DNA of 64,000 bases from Rhodospirillales bacterium CG15_BIG_FIL_POST_REV_8_21_14_020_66_15 (GTDB taxonomy: Bacteria; Pseudomonadota; Alphaproteobacteria; Rhodospirillales; Casp-alpha2): assembly GCA_002781745.1 (NCBI GenBank), contig PFFW01000117.1, positions 1-64,000 on the forward strand, written 5' to 3'. Shown piece by piece: positions 1,749 to 9,668 of the stretch. The position numbers and the translations under genes were made by a program. The notes under the pieces are model-generated. The model was given only the letters and a program-made list of their open reading frames with translations, was not told the DNA's origin and searched no databases. Numbering within the stretch: position 1 is the first letter of the stretch; each line of letters opens with the position of its first letter.

Positions 1749-2504
1749 TCAGGTACCGTAGAACAGGCCGCCGTTGACGTGGATGGTCTGGCCGGTGATG
1801 TAACCGGCCTCGGGCTGGCACAGGAAACGCACGGTCGCCGCCATCTCCTTTACGTCGCCCTGGCGCCCGACGGGAATGTTCATGGCGTTGCGCGGATTGC
1901 CGGCGCCGGCCGAGGCGGGGCGCACCGTCTCCGTCGCTCCCGGCGAGACGCAGTTGGCGGTGATGCCCTGGGTCGCGAACTCGGCGGCGATGCCGTGGGT
2001 GAAGCCGACGATGGCCGACTTGCCCGTCAGGTTGTGGATGCGGTTCGGCATGCCGATGTACCAACTGACGCCGCCGATCGTGATGACGCGGCCCCAGCCG
2101 GCCTCGAGCATGTAGGGGATGGCCGCCTGGCACAGGTGGAAGGCGCTGTCGATGGTGGTGTCGACGACGCGGCGGAAGTCCTCGTGGTCCATTTCCAGGA
2201 ACGCCTTCTGGCCGCGGGTCGAGGCGTTGACGACGACGATGTCGACGCCGCCGAACGCGTCCGCGGCGGCCTGGATCAGGGCGTCGCTGCCCGCCTTGGT
2301 CGAAACGTCGGCCAGCTTGGCGACGGCCGTACCGCCCATGGCCTCGATCTCCTTGACGGCGGCGTCGGCGGCTTCCTGGTCCTGTACACCGTTGACGACG
2401 ATGTTGGCGCCGTCGGCGGCGAGCGCCAGGGCCGTGGCCTTGCCGATGTTGCGCGACGAGCCCGTGATGACGGCGGTCTTGCCCGCCAGAGTTCCATTGG
2501 ACAT
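1749..2504 (-). CDS. SDR family oxidoreductase with atypical catalytic residues
   Basis: N-terminal GSSRNIGKATALALA Rossmann motif and NGG...C-terminus; YxxxK position reads NLTGK. Confidence 0.85.
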   Translation of the reverse strand: MSNGTLAGKTAVITGSSRNIGKATALALAADGANIVVNGVQDQEAADAAVKEIEAMGGTAVAKLADVSTKAGSDALIQAAADAFGGVDIVVVNASTRGQKAFLEMDHEDFRRVVDTTIDSAFHLCQAAIPYMLEAGWGRVITIGGVSWYIGMPNRIHNLTGKSAIVGFTHGIAAEFATQGITANCVSPGATETVRPASAGAGNPRNAMNIPVGRQGDVKEMAATVRFLCQPEAGYITGQTIHVNGGLFYGT

Positions 2505-2540
2505 TCCGGTTGATCTCCCTTGAGGCCGGGTTGCATTTTT

Positions 2541-2745
2541 TTAAGAAGGCGCGCGCCTTCCATTGCCCATTATCTTATTGGCGACGACGGGTTTTGTCTC
2601 GCAACGAAGGGCCGGTCGGGAGGCGCGGGCGACGAATTCGCAGCCCTTGTCGACCTTCTTGGCACGCGCGGCGGCGAGGACCGTCACGGCCTGTTCCTTG
2701 GGCACGCAGAGCACGCCGTCGCAGTCACCCAGGATCAGGCCGCCG
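2541..2745 (-). pseudogene. remnant C-terminus of an RraA/LigK-type (4-carboxy-4-hydroxy-2-oxoadipate) aldolase
   Basis: Frame immediately after the ligJ stop encodes ILGDCDGVLCVPKEQAVTVLAAARAKKVDKG, like the C-terminal GDxDGVxxVP...VLAAA segment of RraA-family proteins; no N-terminal part present. Confidence 0.6.
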
Positions 2746-3748
2746 GCAGCTTGAGCCGCGGGAACACCTTCAAGGCATTCTTGTAGAACACCTTTTCCTT
2801 GTCGTCGGCACTCAGGTACGTGGTTGCCTCGATGTAGCGGCGGGTGTCGTCGAACCATTCGCCGGTGTCGGGGTCCTTGCAGCGCACGGCGCCGTGCAGT
2901 TCGGAGGCGAACAGGATGTTGTCCACCGGCACGACCTCGGCCATCAGATTGATGCCCGGCTGATGATAGACGCAGGTGTCGAAGTATAGGTTCTCGCCCA
3001 TCATCTCCTTCGGCTCGGGCTTGCCCATGCCGATGGCGATCCCGCGATACCGGCCCCAGTGGTAGGGCACGGCGCCGCCGCCGTGGGGGATGATCAGCTT
3101 CAGCTTGGGGAAACGCTCGAACAGGTCCGACTGCAGAAGCTGCATGAAGGCCGCCGTGTCGGCGTTGATGTAATGCGCGCCGGTGAAGTGGAAGTTCGGG
3201 TTGCACGACTGGCTGACGTGGATCATCGCCGGAACCTGCAGTTCCTCCAGCTTCGCGTACAGATCGAACCACCAGGGATCGGTCAGGGGCGGGTCCGTCC
3301 AATGGCCGCCCGAAGGGTCCGGGTTCAGGTTGACGCCGATGAAGCCCAGCTCGTTGACCAGGCGCTCCAGCTCGGGGATGGAGTTGGAGGGCGGACAGCC
3401 CGGCGACTGCGGCAACTGGCCCACGGGGGCGAAGTTGTCGGGGAACATGTCGCAGATGCGCTTGATCTGGTCGTTGCAGATGCGCGTCCACTGCTGGCTC
3501 ATTTCCTCGGTGCCGATGTGGTGACCCATGCCGCCGGCGCGCGGCGAGAAGATCGTCAGGTCCGTGCCGCGCTCCTGCTGCAGGCGAAGCTGCGTGCCTT
3601 CGACGCTCTCGCGGATCTCGTCGTCGGAGATCGCGGGCTCCTTGGCGCTCATCTTCGACAGGTCGCCGTTGGCGTCGATCTGTTCCTTGCGCCAGGCTTC
3701 GTGCTGGGCGGGGGCGGTCGTGTAGTGACCGTGGCAGTCGATAATCAT
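2735..3748 (-). CDS. ligJ: 4-oxalomesaconate hydratase (amidohydrolase family)
   Basis: MIIDCHGHYTTAP...LTIFSPRAGGMGHHIG...GVNLNPDPSGGHWTDPPLTD...GAHYINADTAAFMQ...HGGGAVPYHWGR...FDTCVYHQPGI closely matches remembered LigJ sequence. Confidence 0.85.
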   Translation of the reverse strand: MIIDCHGHYTTAPAQHEAWRKEQIDANGDLSKMSAKEPAISDDEIRESVEGTQLRLQQERGTDLTIFSPRAGGMGHHIGTEEMSQQWTRICNDQIKRICDMFPDNFAPVGQLPQSPGCPPSNSIPELERLVNELGFIGVNLNPDPSGGHWTDPPLTDPWWFDLYAKLEELQVPAMIHVSQSCNPNFHFTGAHYINADTAAFMQLLQSDLFERFPKLKLIIPHGGGAVPYHWGRYRGIAIGMGKPEPKEMMGENLYFDTCVYHQPGINLMAEVVPVDNILFASELHGAVRCKDPDTGEWFDDTRRYIEATTYLSADDKEKVFYKNALKVFPRLKLPAA

Positions 3749-3758
3749 GACGCGAATC

Positions 3759-4574
3759 CTATTCCCCCTTGAAGTCCGGCTTGCGCTTCTCGGTGAATGC
3801 CGTGACGCCTTCGAAGAAATCCGCCGAACGGGTGCAGGCGACGAAGGCCGCCGTTTCCGACGCAAGCTGCTGCTGCAGGTCGCGGGTCAGCGAGCCGTTC
3901 AACAACGCCTTGGTCTCGCGGTAGGACACCGCCGGGCCGCGGGCCAGACGCGCCGCCAGCTTTTCCGTCTCCGCCGCCAGGTCGGCCGACGGCACGACCC
4001 GGTTGACCAAACCCCAGGCCAACGCGTCCTGGGCCGTGAAGCGGTCGCCCAGCAGCGCGATCTCGAACGCCTTCTTCAATCCCACCGTACGCGGCAGGGC
4101 AAAGGTCGAGCCGCCGTCGGGGCTGGTTCCGATGCGGCAATAGGCTAGCGTGAAGAAGGCGTCGTCGGACGCCAGCGCCAGGTCGCAGGCCAGCATCAGG
4201 CTGACGCCCGCCCCGGCCGCCGCACCCCGCACGGAGGCGACGATGGGCTGCGGCAGGGTGCGCATGTTGGTGACGACCTTGTGCACAAGGTCAAGGCGGG
4301 CGTTGAAGTCGGCGGCCGTCTTGTCGCGGTCGGGCTCAGCGTCCAGCATGGCCTTGAAGCTTTTCACGTCGCCGCCGGCCATGAAGTGGTCGCCCTGACC
4401 ACGCATGACCACGGCGCGCACGTCCCTGGCGGTCATAAGCTGCCCGGTGATATCGGCGAGCGCCGCCGTGACCTCGGGCGTGATGGCGTTCAGCGCCTGG
4501 GGCCGGTTGAAGGTGATCCAGCAGATGCCGTCGCGGACCTCGGCGAGGACCGTTTCGTTGGGCGACGTGATCAT
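3759..4574 (-). CDS. enoyl-CoA hydratase/isomerase family protein
   Basis: [35 protein letters not shown]...[13 protein letters not shown]...[20 protein letters not shown]. Confidence 0.9.
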
Positions 4575-4668
4575 GGATGGTTTCCTCTGGTCTTGCTCTG
4601 GGACGGTTGGTGGGCGCAGATTAGAACACGTCCAGCGCCCCACCAACCCATGAAAATCGGAGGAACGC

Positions 4669-5385
4669 ATGCCCGCAGCCGACGTCAAGGTGATCTTCTT
4701 CGATGTGTTCGGCACGGTCGTCGACTGGCGGAGCAGCCTGACGCGCCTGTTGCAGGAGTTCGGCCGCGAGGAGGAGATCAGGGCCGACTGGCCCGCCTTC
4801 CTCGCCGCCTGGAAGGCGGGCTACCGCCCGGCCATGGACGCGGTTATTTCCGGCGCCCGTCCCTATTTCAACCTTGACGAGATGTACCTGGAGCGCATGA
4901 ACCAGGTATTGGACGAATTCGGGCTGGAACGCCTTTCCGAGACCCAGAAACGGAAGATCCTTCACCTGTGGCTGAAGATCGACCCCTGGCCCGACGCGGT
5001 CGAGGGGCTGACCCGGCTGGCGAAGAAGTACGTTCTGGTGACCCTGTCCAACGGCTCGTTTGCCTGGTTGACCGCCATCGCCAAGCACGGGCGGCTGCCG
5101 TTCGACGCCATCCTGACGGCCGAGAATGCGGAAGTGTACAAGCCCCACCCGCGCGCCTACCTGACGGCGATCCGCCTGATGGGTATGGAAAAGACGCCGG
5201 AGCGGTGCATGCTGACGGCCTGCCACAACTACGATCTGGCTGCGGCGCGCAGCCACGGCATGAAGACCGCTTTCCTGCCGCGGAAGGAATACGGCCCCGA
5301 TCAGGAAGCGGACCAGGCGCCGGAAAGCGACTGGGACGTGGTGGCGAACGAACTGATCGGCGTCGCCGAAGCGATGGGGTGTTAG
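4669..5385 (+). CDS. haloacid dehalogenase type II (HAD superfamily)
   Basis: [17 protein letters not shown]...[10 protein letters not shown]...[17 protein letters not shown] motifs. Confidence 0.85.
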
Positions 5386-5460
5386 GCGCCGCAGGCGCCT
5401 CGGGGATGTTAGGCGCCGTAGGCGCCTCGGGGATGTTAGGCGCCGTAGGCGCCCGGGATT
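5381..5460. repeat. three tandem 27-nt repeats each with a GGCGCC-N3-GGCGCC hairpin
   Basis: gttaggcgccg(c/t)aggcgcctcggggat at 5381-5407, 5408-5434 and a variant at 5435-5460. Confidence 0.9.
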
Positions 5461-5461
5461 G

Positions 5462-5725
5462 TTAAAAGCCCCCCATTCCGCCGCCGATATCGCCGCCGCC
5501 ATGGTCTCCGAAGCCGCCGTCCAGGTGGCCGGGCGTGTCGTGGGGGCCGCCATAGCCGCCTTCGTACCCGCCCTCGTACCCGCCTTCCTGCGGTTGTGAC
5601 GGGCCGAGACCGAGCGGGATCAGGAACCAGGCGGGCAGCCAGTTGAGCCACGACCGCAACCGTTCGCGGGACGACGCCGGATCGATGGGGGCCTCCGCCG
5701 TTTTCATCTTGTCGTCTTGGGTCAT
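5462..5725 (-). CDS. small Gly/Tyr-rich protein of unknown function
   Basis: 87 aa with hydrophobic LNWLPAWFLIPLGLG and EGGYEGGYEGGYGG...GGGDIGGGMGGF tail; starts 1 nt after the upstream gene stop. Confidence 0.6.
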   Translation of the reverse strand: MTQDDKMKTAEAPIDPASSRERLRSWLNWLPAWFLIPLGLGPSQPQEGGYEGGYEGGYGGPHDTPGHLDGGFGDHGGGDIGGGMGGF

Positions 5726-5726
5726 G

Positions 5727-6536
5727 TCAGCTTCCCGGTTTGCGATTCCAATAGTCGACGTTCAGGTCCCGCATCAGGTCGCCATGACGATATTCCAGGC
5801 AGGACTTCACCCCGGCCAGCGAATGGTGATGGCCGGGGCGGGCGCAGCGGTCGACCTCGCGCCGCGCCCCCTGGACGGCGGTCGCGCCGGCCCGCTCCAG
5901 AACCGGCGCCATGTCGTCCAGCACGTCGTTCCACAGGCGCTCGACGGCGGCGGGCGACGATGCGGCGCGGTAGTCGGTAATCGCCGAGGCGACGCGGCCG
6001 ACGATGCGGGCCGAGGTCGCCCGGGGTTGGCCGTCGACCAGTTCCTCGCCCACGGCGCGCAGGCTCTTGGTCACGTATTCGGCCTCGGCCGGCGTGATCG
6101 GGTCCGGATCGTCGGGCCGCGGGGCCGGGATCAGCGATGCCTGGCGCGTCACGACAAGGCGAGCTTCCGCACCGCCCAGCGTCGCCAGACGGTCCGCTGG
6201 CAGGCTGACCCGCACGCGGATGAAGCCGCGCCCGCTGGTAAAGGTTGCGTTCGCCGCCGGGATGTCGCGTACGGCGCCGCCCGCGGTGGTCACGCGCAAT
6301 CGGAACTGGGACGGATCCGCCGGCGCATAAAGGGTCCCGGTGCGGGGGGATTCCCGGTCCTGTTGAAGGCAGAACGTCGTGATGTCCGTCTCGCAGGTGG
6401 CGCCGTCGCAGATGAAGGGCATCCCTTCCTGGACTTCGAGCGCCGCCAGGATCTGTGGCGCGGCCTGGGACGGTCGGGTCGTGGTCAAGAGGGCGGCGGC
6501 AACCAGGACAAGGGCCAGGGAAGTGACGCGCGTCAT
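5727..6536 (-). CDS. exported cysteine-containing protein of unknown function (paralogue B)
   Basis: Signal peptide-like N-terminus; PQILAALEVQEGMPFICDGATCETDITTFCLQQD shared with the upstream gene. Confidence 0.75.
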   Translation of the reverse strand: MTRVTSLALVLVAAALLTTTRPSQAAPQILAALEVQEGMPFICDGATCETDITTFCLQQDRESPRTGTLYAPADPSQFRLRVTTAGGAVRDIPAANATFTSGRGFIRVRVSLPADRLATLGGAEARLVVTRQASLIPAPRPDDPDPITPAEAEYVTKSLRAVGEELVDGQPRATSARIVGRVASAITDYRAASSPAAVERLWNDVLDDMAPVLERAGATAVQGARREVDRCARPGHHHSLAGVKSCLEYRHGDLMRDLNVDYWNRKPGS

Positions 6537-6540
6537 GTCC

Positions 6541-7338
6541 TTAACTCCCGGGGTTGTTTTGCCAATGCTCCGCGTTCAGGTGGCGGATCATGCGTGAATG
6601 CTCATAACCGAGGCAGCGGCGGATGCTGCCGAGAGAGTATCCATCGGCCCCCGACGAGCAGAACCCGAGGGTGTCCACGGCGTCCTGCGTCACACGGCCG
6701 CCCGGCGTGTCGCGCAGCGTGGCGTCCCACAGGCGGTCGAGCGTGCGCCGGCCCTCGTCGCCCGACCGGTCGCCGGCGGCGCGAAGGGCGGCGACGAGGC
6801 GGCCCAGCGCCTGGGCCGACAGGGTATCCGGGCGCCCGTGCAAGGCTGCCGCGCGCTCCCGCACCGAGATCGTCACGTAGGTGATCTCCGGTTCCGTCAA
6901 CGGGTTCGGATCGGCGGGGTCCGGATGGGGCACCAGCGCGGCGTCGTCGGCGACGATCAGGCGCGCCGAGACCGCGCCGAGGGCGTCAAGGTCGCCTTTG
7001 GCGATTGAGACCCGAACGGAGACGAAATCCCGCTCTGTCGCGAAACGGACCGCGTCGGTGGCGGGAACGTCGCGGGTATTTCCGGCGGCGTCGGTGAGAC
7101 GCAGGACGAACTGGCCACCCCGGGCCGGGTGATAGAGCTGGCCTGGTAGGGGAATCTGTTTATCCTTCTGCAGGCATAGCGTCGACAGGCTGGTTTCACA
7201 CAGGCCCCCGTCGCAGGCGAGGGCGATGCCGTCGGCGTCGGGCAGGGCGGCAAGAATCTGCGGGGCGGCGAGGGTGCCGCCGGCCGGGAATGCGGCTAGA
7301 AGGAAAGCAATACAGGCGTAGCGAAGACCCATGTGCAT
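6541..7338 (-). CDS. exported cysteine-containing protein of unknown function (paralogue A)
   Basis: MHMGLRYACIAFLLAAFPAGGTLAAPQILAALPDADGIALACDGGLCETSLSTLCLQKD; AGGAG just upstream of ATG. Confidence 0.75.
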   Translation of the reverse strand: MHMGLRYACIAFLLAAFPAGGTLAAPQILAALPDADGIALACDGGLCETSLSTLCLQKDKQIPLPGQLYHPARGGQFVLRLTDAAGNTRDVPATDAVRFATERDFVSVRVSIAKGDLDALGAVSARLIVADDAALVPHPDPADPNPLTEPEITYVTISVRERAAALHGRPDTLSAQALGRLVAALRAAGDRSGDEGRRTLDRLWDATLRDTPGGRVTQDAVDTLGFCSSGADGYSLGSIRRCLGYEHSRMIRHLNAEHWQNNPGS

Positions 7339-7541
7339 GAACTCCTCATCACATAAGCTTCGGGCCCGGCTCGTCACGCGGTCGTTTCGGCGGCGATACC
7401 GTCGGCGGAGAAGCGCGCCGCAGCAGCGCGCCCGGACAACCTGGGCCGGGCTTCTCCAGAATTTCCTAATGTAATTCTGCGCCGGGGCGCGCTCGGACGC
7501 AAGGCCGGCCTGCGCGCGCCCGGTCCGGACCGTGCCGGTGC

Positions 7542-8453
7542 CTACTTGCCGTATTCGGGGACCACGCTGCGGGCGACCGAGGCGTCCAGGGCTTCGTAGT
7601 CGTAGTAGGCCAGCGTGTCGTACTGGTCGGCCCGGCTCATGACCCGGTCCATGAAACCCTCGGTGCCGTCGTGCTCGCGGATGTGGGCGTAGAGATCCTG
7701 GAACAGCCTGGCTGCGGCCCGCATGGAGGTTGCCGGCCAGATCACGATGTTGAAGCCCATGTCCTGGAACTGCCGGCCGGTGAAAAACGGCGTGCGGCCG
7801 AATTCGGTCATGTTGGCCATCTTGATGCCCGGTACCTTCTGGGCGAATTCGATATGCGCCTCGGCCGATGGCAGGCCGTCGGGGAAGGTCACGTCGGCGC
7901 CGGCCTCGCGGTACAGGTTGGCGCGCTTGATGGCGCCCTCCAGGCCCTCGACCCCAGCCGCGTCCGTGCGCGCGATGATGATCAGGTGCGAAGACGCCGC
8001 CTTGGCGGCGGCGATCTTGGCCGCCGCCTCCTCGGGTTCGACAAGGCGTTTGTCGTTCAGATGGCCGCACTTCTTGGGCAGAAGCTGGTCCTCGATATGG
8101 ACGGCGCCGGCGCCGGCCGTCTCCAGTTCCTTGACCACGCGCATGGCGTTCAGCACGCCGCCGTAGCCGGTGTCGCCGTCGACGATCAGCGGCAGGTCCG
8201 TGGTGCGGCTGACGCTGCGCACGACGCCGCAAAGCTCCTCCAGGGTCATGATGCCCAGGTCCGGCAGGCCGAGCGACGCCGTCACCGCGCCGCCCGAGAT
8301 GTACAGCGTCTCGAACCCGGCCTGTTTGGCGATCATGCCGGCAAAGGCGTTGTGGGCGCCCGGCACGCGCAGGATTTCGCCGCGGTCCAGGAGGTCGCGC
8401 AGCCGTTCGCCCGTGGGGCGTTTCTCGCGTCCGTTGCCTTCAAGCCAAGTCAT
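7542..8453 (-). CDS. isocitrate lyase / PEP mutase family lyase
   Basis: AHNAFAGMIAKQAGFETLYISGGAV...VDGDTGYGG...HIEDQLLPKKCGH (active-site KKCGH). Confidence 0.92.
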   Translation of the reverse strand: MTWLEGNGREKRPTGERLRDLLDRGEILRVPGAHNAFAGMIAKQAGFETLYISGGAVTASLGLPDLGIMTLEELCGVVRSVSRTTDLPLIVDGDTGYGGVLNAMRVVKELETAGAGAVHIEDQLLPKKCGHLNDKRLVEPEEAAAKIAAAKAASSHLIIIARTDAAGVEGLEGAIKRANLYREAGADVTFPDGLPSAEAHIEFAQKVPGIKMANMTEFGRTPFFTGRQFQDMGFNIVIWPATSMRAAARLFQDLYAHIREHDGTEGFMDRVMSRADQYDTLAYYDYEALDASVARSVVPEYGK

Positions 8454-8490
8454 GGTGGGTGTCCTCCGTCCAAGGTAATGCGTTGGTCAA

Positions 8491-8505
8491 ACTGTATACA
8501 ATCCA
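8491..8505. promoter_or_regulatory. candidate GntR-family operator ACTGTATACAATCCA
   Basis: Same 15-mer found at 12866-12880; TTGTATACAATC at 33056-33067; sits in the divergent 7542-8453 / 8637-9668 intergenic region. Confidence 0.6.
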
Positions 8506-8636
8506 GTTTGTTCCGGGGCTAGACCTAACGGCGTTTCCGCCCTCGGCGCAACGGTTTCGACCGCGGACGGCAAGGGGCGACGCCTGCCCATTTAAAGCGC
8601 TTGACCCCACGGCCGGTCGGGACGATGTAACGACTC

Positions 8637-9668
8637 ATGAAAAACACGCCGCTGACCCCCGTCACCGAAAAATCCGCATGGACCGCCGCCGAACTGGCCG
8701 ACGACCCGGGCTGGACCCGGATCCTCGGCAGCAAGGAGATCGCGGCGCTGGAGCGCGCGACCGCCGAGCGGGATTTCCGCGGCAAGGGCGCCTTGCAGTT
8801 CGAGCGCGAGGATTTCGACGAGCCCGCCCTGGCGGCGCTGGCAGACTGGGCGGTAGAGGAATTGGAGAACGGGCGCGGCTGCGTCCTCATCAAGGGGTTG
8901 GAGGTCGACCGCTACGACCGACCCCGGATCGAGGCCATGTACTGGGCGCTTGCGGTCCTGCTGGGCATTCCCATGCACCACAACCCAGACGGCGACATCA
9001 TCGGCGAGGTCACGGACCAGGGCCTCGACTACAACGATCCTCTGATCCGCGGCTACAAGACGCGGCAGAAGCTGTTCTTCCATTGCGACGGCCTGGACAT
9101 CGTCAGCCTGCTCTGCCTGCAGCCCTCCATGTCGGGCGGCGAGAGCCAGATCGCTTCAAGCACCGCTGTCTACAACGAGATCCTGGCGACCCATCCGGAA
9201 TACCTGCAGCCGCTGTTCGAAGGCTTCCGCTTCAACCTGCGCGGCGAGGGTGAGGCGGGGGAAACCCATCCCGTGACCCGCCACAAGGTGCCGGTCTACA
9301 GTTGGTGCGACGGACGCTTGAGCTGCCGCTATCTGCGCAAGGCCATCATCGAGGGCCAGAATTTCATCGGCGAGCCCATTTCGGACCTGGCCAGGGCGGC
9401 GCTCGACTACATGCAGGACCTCTGCGCCAGCGACAAGTTCCGCTACGACATGCCGTTCGAGCCGGGCGACATCCAGATTCTCAACAACTACGTGACCCTG
9501 CATTCCCGGGCCGCGTTCGAGGACTGGCCTGACGGCACGCGCAAGCGCAACCTTCTGCGCATCTGGATGAACTTGCGGAACGGGCGCAAGCTGGAGCCCC
9601 GCTTCGCCGACCGCTACAACACGGGGCCGCGCACGCCCATGCGTTTGAAGGGCGATCGAGCGGCCTGA
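8637..9668 (+). CDS. TauD/TfdA family Fe(II)/2-oxoglutarate-dependent oxygenase
   Basis: HCD (HxD) in KLFFHCDGLDIVSLLCLQP, distal His and Arg in NNYVTLHSRAAFEDW...RKRNLLRIW. Confidence 0.85.
   Translation: MKNTPLTPVTEKSAWTAAELADDPGWTRILGSKEIAALERATAERDFRGKGALQFEREDFDEPALAALADWAVEELENGRGCVLIKGLEVDRYDRPRIEAMYWALAVLLGIPMHHNPDGDIIGEVTDQGLDYNDPLIRGYKTRQKLFFHCDGLDIVSLLCLQPSMSGGESQIASSTAVYNEILATHPEYLQPLFEGFRFNLRGEGEAGETHPVTRHKVPVYSWCDGRLSCRYLRKAIIEGQNFIGEPISDLARAALDYMQDLCASDKFRYDMPFEPGDIQILNNYVTLHSRAAFEDWPDGTRKRNLLRIWMNLRNGRKLEPRFADRYNTGPRTPMRLKGDRAA

Follow-up and report, generated by a model that had tools for sequence, protein, structure and literature searches.

The window (the whole 64,000-nucleotide stretch of DNA that was analysed) carries on its minus strand three closely packed genes, designated A, B and C. 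A and B encode two predicted exported proteins of a single family, and C encodes a small Gly/Tyr-rich protein. The features of this locus are the following.

7338-6541, minus strand: gene A (P0001), 265 aa, predicted exported, family member (open reading frame and translation)
7267..7338, minus strand: predicted Sec signal peptide of A, aa 1-24, MHMGLRYACIAFLLAAFPAGGTLA (from sequence; the APQ that follows is family-wide)
6536-5727, minus strand: gene B (P0002), 269 aa, predicted exported, family member, orthologous across the genus (open reading frame)
6462..6536, minus strand: predicted Sec signal peptide of B, aa 1-25, ending RPSQA (from sequence)
5725-5462, minus strand: gene C (P0003), 87 aa, Gly/Tyr-rich, genus-specific companion of B (open reading frame)
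5600..5650, minus strand: hydrophobic Trp/Pro stretch of C, aa 26-42, WLNWLPAWFLIPLGLGP (from sequence)
5546..5587, minus strand: EGGYEGGYEGGYGG repeat of C (from sequence), with a 12-nt tandem repeat at 5556-5584
5376..5464, plus strand: 3.4 copies of a 27-bp direct repeat, lying where the HAD gene and C converge (Tandem Repeats Finder)

A and B are separated by 4 nt (6537-6540) and B and C by 1 nt (5726), which agrees exactly with the coordinates and gaps given in an earlier note on this DNA. The same note had described A and B as tandem paralogues, and this is borne out by 40% identity over 249 aa (E = 1e-48) and by the presence of every motif it quoted for the pair, including the C-terminal LNAEHWQNNPGS and LNVDYWNRKPGS. 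A search of the window's genome returned A and B and no third copy of the family. Because the reading frame of A is open upstream to 8232, its start at 7338 (alternative ATG at 7332) is placed by means of the signal peptide at MHMGLRY. Predicted cleavage would give mature chains that begin with APQIL in both proteins, and the export of A and B that the note had proposed, together with their cysteine signature, is well supported by the translated sequences.

All three appear to be genuine genes. B has orthologues (L032-L035) that are 66-77% identical, and its dN/dS between genus members is 0.07-0.30; the corresponding value for C, 0.12-0.53, indicates purifying selection. No close orthologue of A was found. 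It is regarded as a real gene because its GC and GC3 agree with those of the neighbouring genes, all five family cysteines are kept, and its dN/dS against the B genes is 0.45-0.66. A lies on a long branch of uncertain placement in a quick tree, and could thus be an old duplicate that has evolved rapidly or have arrived later.

Relatives of A and B were recovered by whole-genome search in 30 of the 48 genomes of the window's bacterial family, in 50 of 297 from the order and in 41 of 385 from the class. A phylum-wide sample of 299 genomes gave one match besides the window's own genome, also from an alphaproteobacterium, and in the samples searched the family is confined to Alphaproteobacteria. 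No relatives were found in viral contigs or plasmids. Each genome carries one to five copies and tandem duplication is recurrent, with tandem pairs occurring, for example, in genus g14 and family f20. Within the window's genus, A is restricted to one genome, while four other genomes carry B alone and three carry neither gene.

The family has a strict cysteine signature. Five cysteines are invariant in all 96 distinct aligned members, and the mature chain contains exactly five in 91 of them. The three N-terminal cysteines follow a nearly fixed C-x4-C-x7-C spacing and the C-terminal pair is usually C-x14-C. Conservation extends to the APQ at the start of the mature chain, to a nearly invariant histidine (H247 of A) and to a tryptophan near the C-terminus that is invariant in a 44-member alignment and usually lies within LN-x-x-YW; this motif stands at a constant distance from the last cysteine in 58 of 96 members, and the chain terminates 22-25 residues past that cysteine. 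Both A and B possess the full signature, namely signal peptide, mature APQ, five invariant cysteines and C-terminal tryptophan. Two AlphaFold models of moderate confidence, each built from only six sequences (pLDDT 74.7 for B and 79.6 for the second model), agree on a beta-stranded region of ~115 residues at the start of the mature chain and a helical part thereafter. The predicted architecture is therefore an N-terminal beta domain with three cysteines followed by C-terminal helices with two. Apparent domain fusions in two genomes (G605 and G458) were read as assembly chimeras or decayed frames and set aside. In one of these, the L169 open reading frame (G605:C7) combines the C-terminal half of a family member with an EPSP-synthase-like stretch and is probably an assembly chimera.

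The earlier note did not recognise the family, and neither did the libraries: by sequence, A and B have no match in Pfam, NCBIfam, PHROGs or the PDB. A, B and C have no match in Pfam (2025) or NCBIfam 20.0, and when the window proteins and/or 44 members were scanned against these two libraries, PHROGs 4 and PADLOC, no family was common to more than two members. The best stray matches, to LmuA (0.00036), ABATE (0.0024) and PRK05928 (0.0033), each occurred in one of the 44 members and were for that reason read as chance. The family profile found nothing convincing among PDB sequences (best E 0.11). In Foldseek, a check suggested in the note, neither AlphaFold model reached E <= 0.001 against the PDB, nor did the one model searched against viral structures. 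Cupin-like PDB matches were rejected at a TM of about 0.1, and a viral match, A0A2I7QSA5, was left unused since its probability of 0.99 was accompanied by a TM of 0.20 and an E of 3e-3. No enzyme family was matched by sequence, no catalytic motif was recognised, and a literature search found nothing on the five-cysteine family. The observation is sound: A and B belong to a real, unnamed orphan family, for which any assignment of function is a proposal.

Gene context provides a hint of function in one lineage. Two settings recur within the window's bacterial family. In one, PrpB/PEP-mutase-like or other upstream genes precede the family gene or genes, which are followed by an enoyl-CoA hydratase and an SDR. 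In the other, trmFO, a pentapeptide-repeat protein and the family gene are followed 17-180 nt downstream by two CoA-transferase subunits, and such operon-like spacing between family gene and transferase subunits is seen at seven loci in four genera. The order of pentapeptide-repeat gene, five-cysteine gene and two CoA-transferase subunit genes, mostly adjoining trmFO, was noted at L041, L043, L044, L048, L051, L058 and L024. One transferase subunit has a weak match to the 3-oxoacid CoA-transferase subunit A model; the pair may resemble IpdAB of steroid catabolism, and the neighbour named TrmFO is a putative assignment read from its sequence. A single enoyl-CoA hydratase subfamily adjoins the family gene in the window's genome and in 12 others of the bacterial family. 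Given the 12 enoyl-CoA hydratase homologues in the 3.85 Mb of the window's genome, chance adjacency within 3.5 kb is estimated at roughly 2-3%. Positions 1749-9668 of the window resemble a catabolic island, with an SDR, an amidohydrolase, an enoyl-CoA hydratase, a type II haloacid dehalogenase and a TauD-type dioxygenase, as well as a methylisocitrate-lyase-like PrpB that scores above its cut-off. In other alphaproteobacterial families the gene usually stands alone, often adjoining trmFO and uvrA, and the context there is diverse, including transporter-like and regulator-like genes and others. From its absence in those families, the acyl-CoA catabolic link is taken as a feature of the lineage and not one that defines the family.

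Taken together, the five invariant cysteines, the paralogy, the beta-then-helix models, the lack of an enzyme match and the adjacency to CoA genes lead us to favour, tentatively, the view that A and B represent an undescribed family of alphaproteobacterial proteins that are exported by Sec to the periplasm, are stabilised there by disulfides and act as non-catalytic binding or adaptor modules. A cleavable signal peptide would direct both proteins to the periplasm, where oxidation would form two intramolecular disulfides, one within the beta domain (C42-C47 or C47-C55) and the other, C227-C242, joining the final pair of helices. One cysteine of the five would be left unpaired and available to link two chains, as either a homodimer or an A-B heterodimer, and the protein could then serve as a binding or adaptor module. 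The disulfides, the dimerisation and any partners are inferred. Within the window's bacterial family, A and B would probably be co-transcribed with acyl-CoA catabolic genes and their ligand or partner may relate to the same nutrient; C could be a genus-specific accessory, possibly touching the membrane. Counted against the binding or adaptor reading are the prospect that these proteins may have a catalytic function on an unrecognised fold and the moderate confidence of the six-sequence models.

Several other explanations deserve consideration. The conserved company of enoyl-CoA hydratase, SDR, CoA-transferase and PrpB-like genes within the bacterial family, with dipeptide-type ABC permease genes close by at some of these loci, could mean that the proteins capture a substrate in the periplasm and deliver it to the adjacent acyl-CoA catabolic cluster. 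Such a dedicated role is unlikely: the diverse context outside the bacterial family argues against it, the family being common in other bacterial families without catabolic surroundings, while Foldseek against the PDB revealed no likeness to known solute-binding folds and the family is missing altogether from three genomes of the genus to which the window belongs. The odd number of strictly invariant cysteines and the nearly invariant H247 might instead point to a thiol- or metal-active periplasmic protein in which free or clustered cysteines (C-x4-C-x7-C) form the functional site, yet there is neither a CxxC thioredoxin-type nor a CxxCH haem motif, and no redox or metal family in Pfam or NCBIfam is matched, leaving this quite improbable. 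The earlier note had suggested that the three proteins could form an envelope or surface assembly. In its favour are the tight operon, the selection acting on C and the conserved linkage that the note anticipated, which holds inside the genus: C lies directly downstream of B in L032-L035, and the two are linked in five of five genus genomes carrying B. Outside the genus the linkage fails. C is absent beside all other family members examined there, and among 120 genomes of the order it turned up in no other genus, bar three weak matches broken by stop codons. With C limited to one genus, A to one genome within it and most family members lacking both, and with C, for want of a signal peptide, probably on the cytoplasmic side, apart from A and B, an assembly of this kind is very unlikely here and does not apply as a general rule. 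The A-B-C set is a genus-level feature, and C is a real gene, yet no family-wide partner of the five-cysteine proteins.

A final alternative is suggested by the C-terminal hairpin (C-x14-C-L-x10-L-N-x-x-Y), which could represent a divergent, truncated LprI domain (PF07007), making A and B periplasmic regulators of cell-wall hydrolases, as proposed for ScwA. In hhalign the best local alignment to LprI falls exactly on the hairpin register, aligning the second LprI cysteine and LN-x-x-Y (C-L-x10-L-N-x-x-Y), with a score of 15.0 compared with 9.7 +/- 2.0 for 150 column-shuffled LprI alignments, one of which scored higher. However, only the last 24 columns are aligned, at a probability of about 4% and a P of about 0.01 that leaves no margin for multiple testing, as LprI was a hand-picked candidate. 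The second LprI half (Q-x-x-W-x-x-x-R-D-x-x-C) is absent from the family, the chain stopping too soon past the last cysteine, and neither A, B nor the 44 members matched PF07007 at E <= 1 or reached its gathering score. Salmonella ScwA, of ~275 aa, is also periplasmic and disulfide-bonded and carries an LprI domain at its C-terminus; it is disulfide-dependent and tied to a murein hydrolase and not to lysozyme (PMC7933661). Like LprI proteins such as ScwA, A and B are about 270 aa, predicted to be exported and disulfide-bonded, and would end in a helical cysteine hairpin; unlike them, they carry three further cysteines in an additional N-terminal beta domain and lack the second LprI half. A and B are accordingly not filed as LprI proteins, a role of this type seems improbable, and the weak C-terminal resemblance is treated as a lead and not as membership. 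ScwA is still useful as a functional analogue.

Being multi-copy, spread across many alphaproteobacterial families, absent from the libraries searched and marked by a strict five-cysteine signature, the family lends itself well to a first structure determination and a knockout, and its lineage-specific place in CoA-dependent catabolic operons offers a functional hint. A more far-reaching idea, a long shot at present, is that it constitutes a periplasmic family with a new fold, in which a beta domain adjoins a helical domain clasped by cysteines, and that in marine Rhodospirillales-type bacteria it couples acyl-CoA catabolism with envelope function through a disulfide-linked hetero-oligomer of paralogues.

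Gene C has features of its own. Its EGGYEGGYEGGYGG repeats are present as the earlier note had reported, and a WxxWxPxWxLxPxGL pattern is conserved (alignment A3). The membrane-anchored appearance described in that note is only suggestive, because the hydrophobic stretch is short (~15 residues) and contains prolines, and C has no signal peptide. Next to the gene, every copy of the 27-bp repeat at 5376-5464 contains the inverted repeat GGCGCC..AGGCGCC; the motif has no second site in the genome, and the array is a possible stem-loop spacer.
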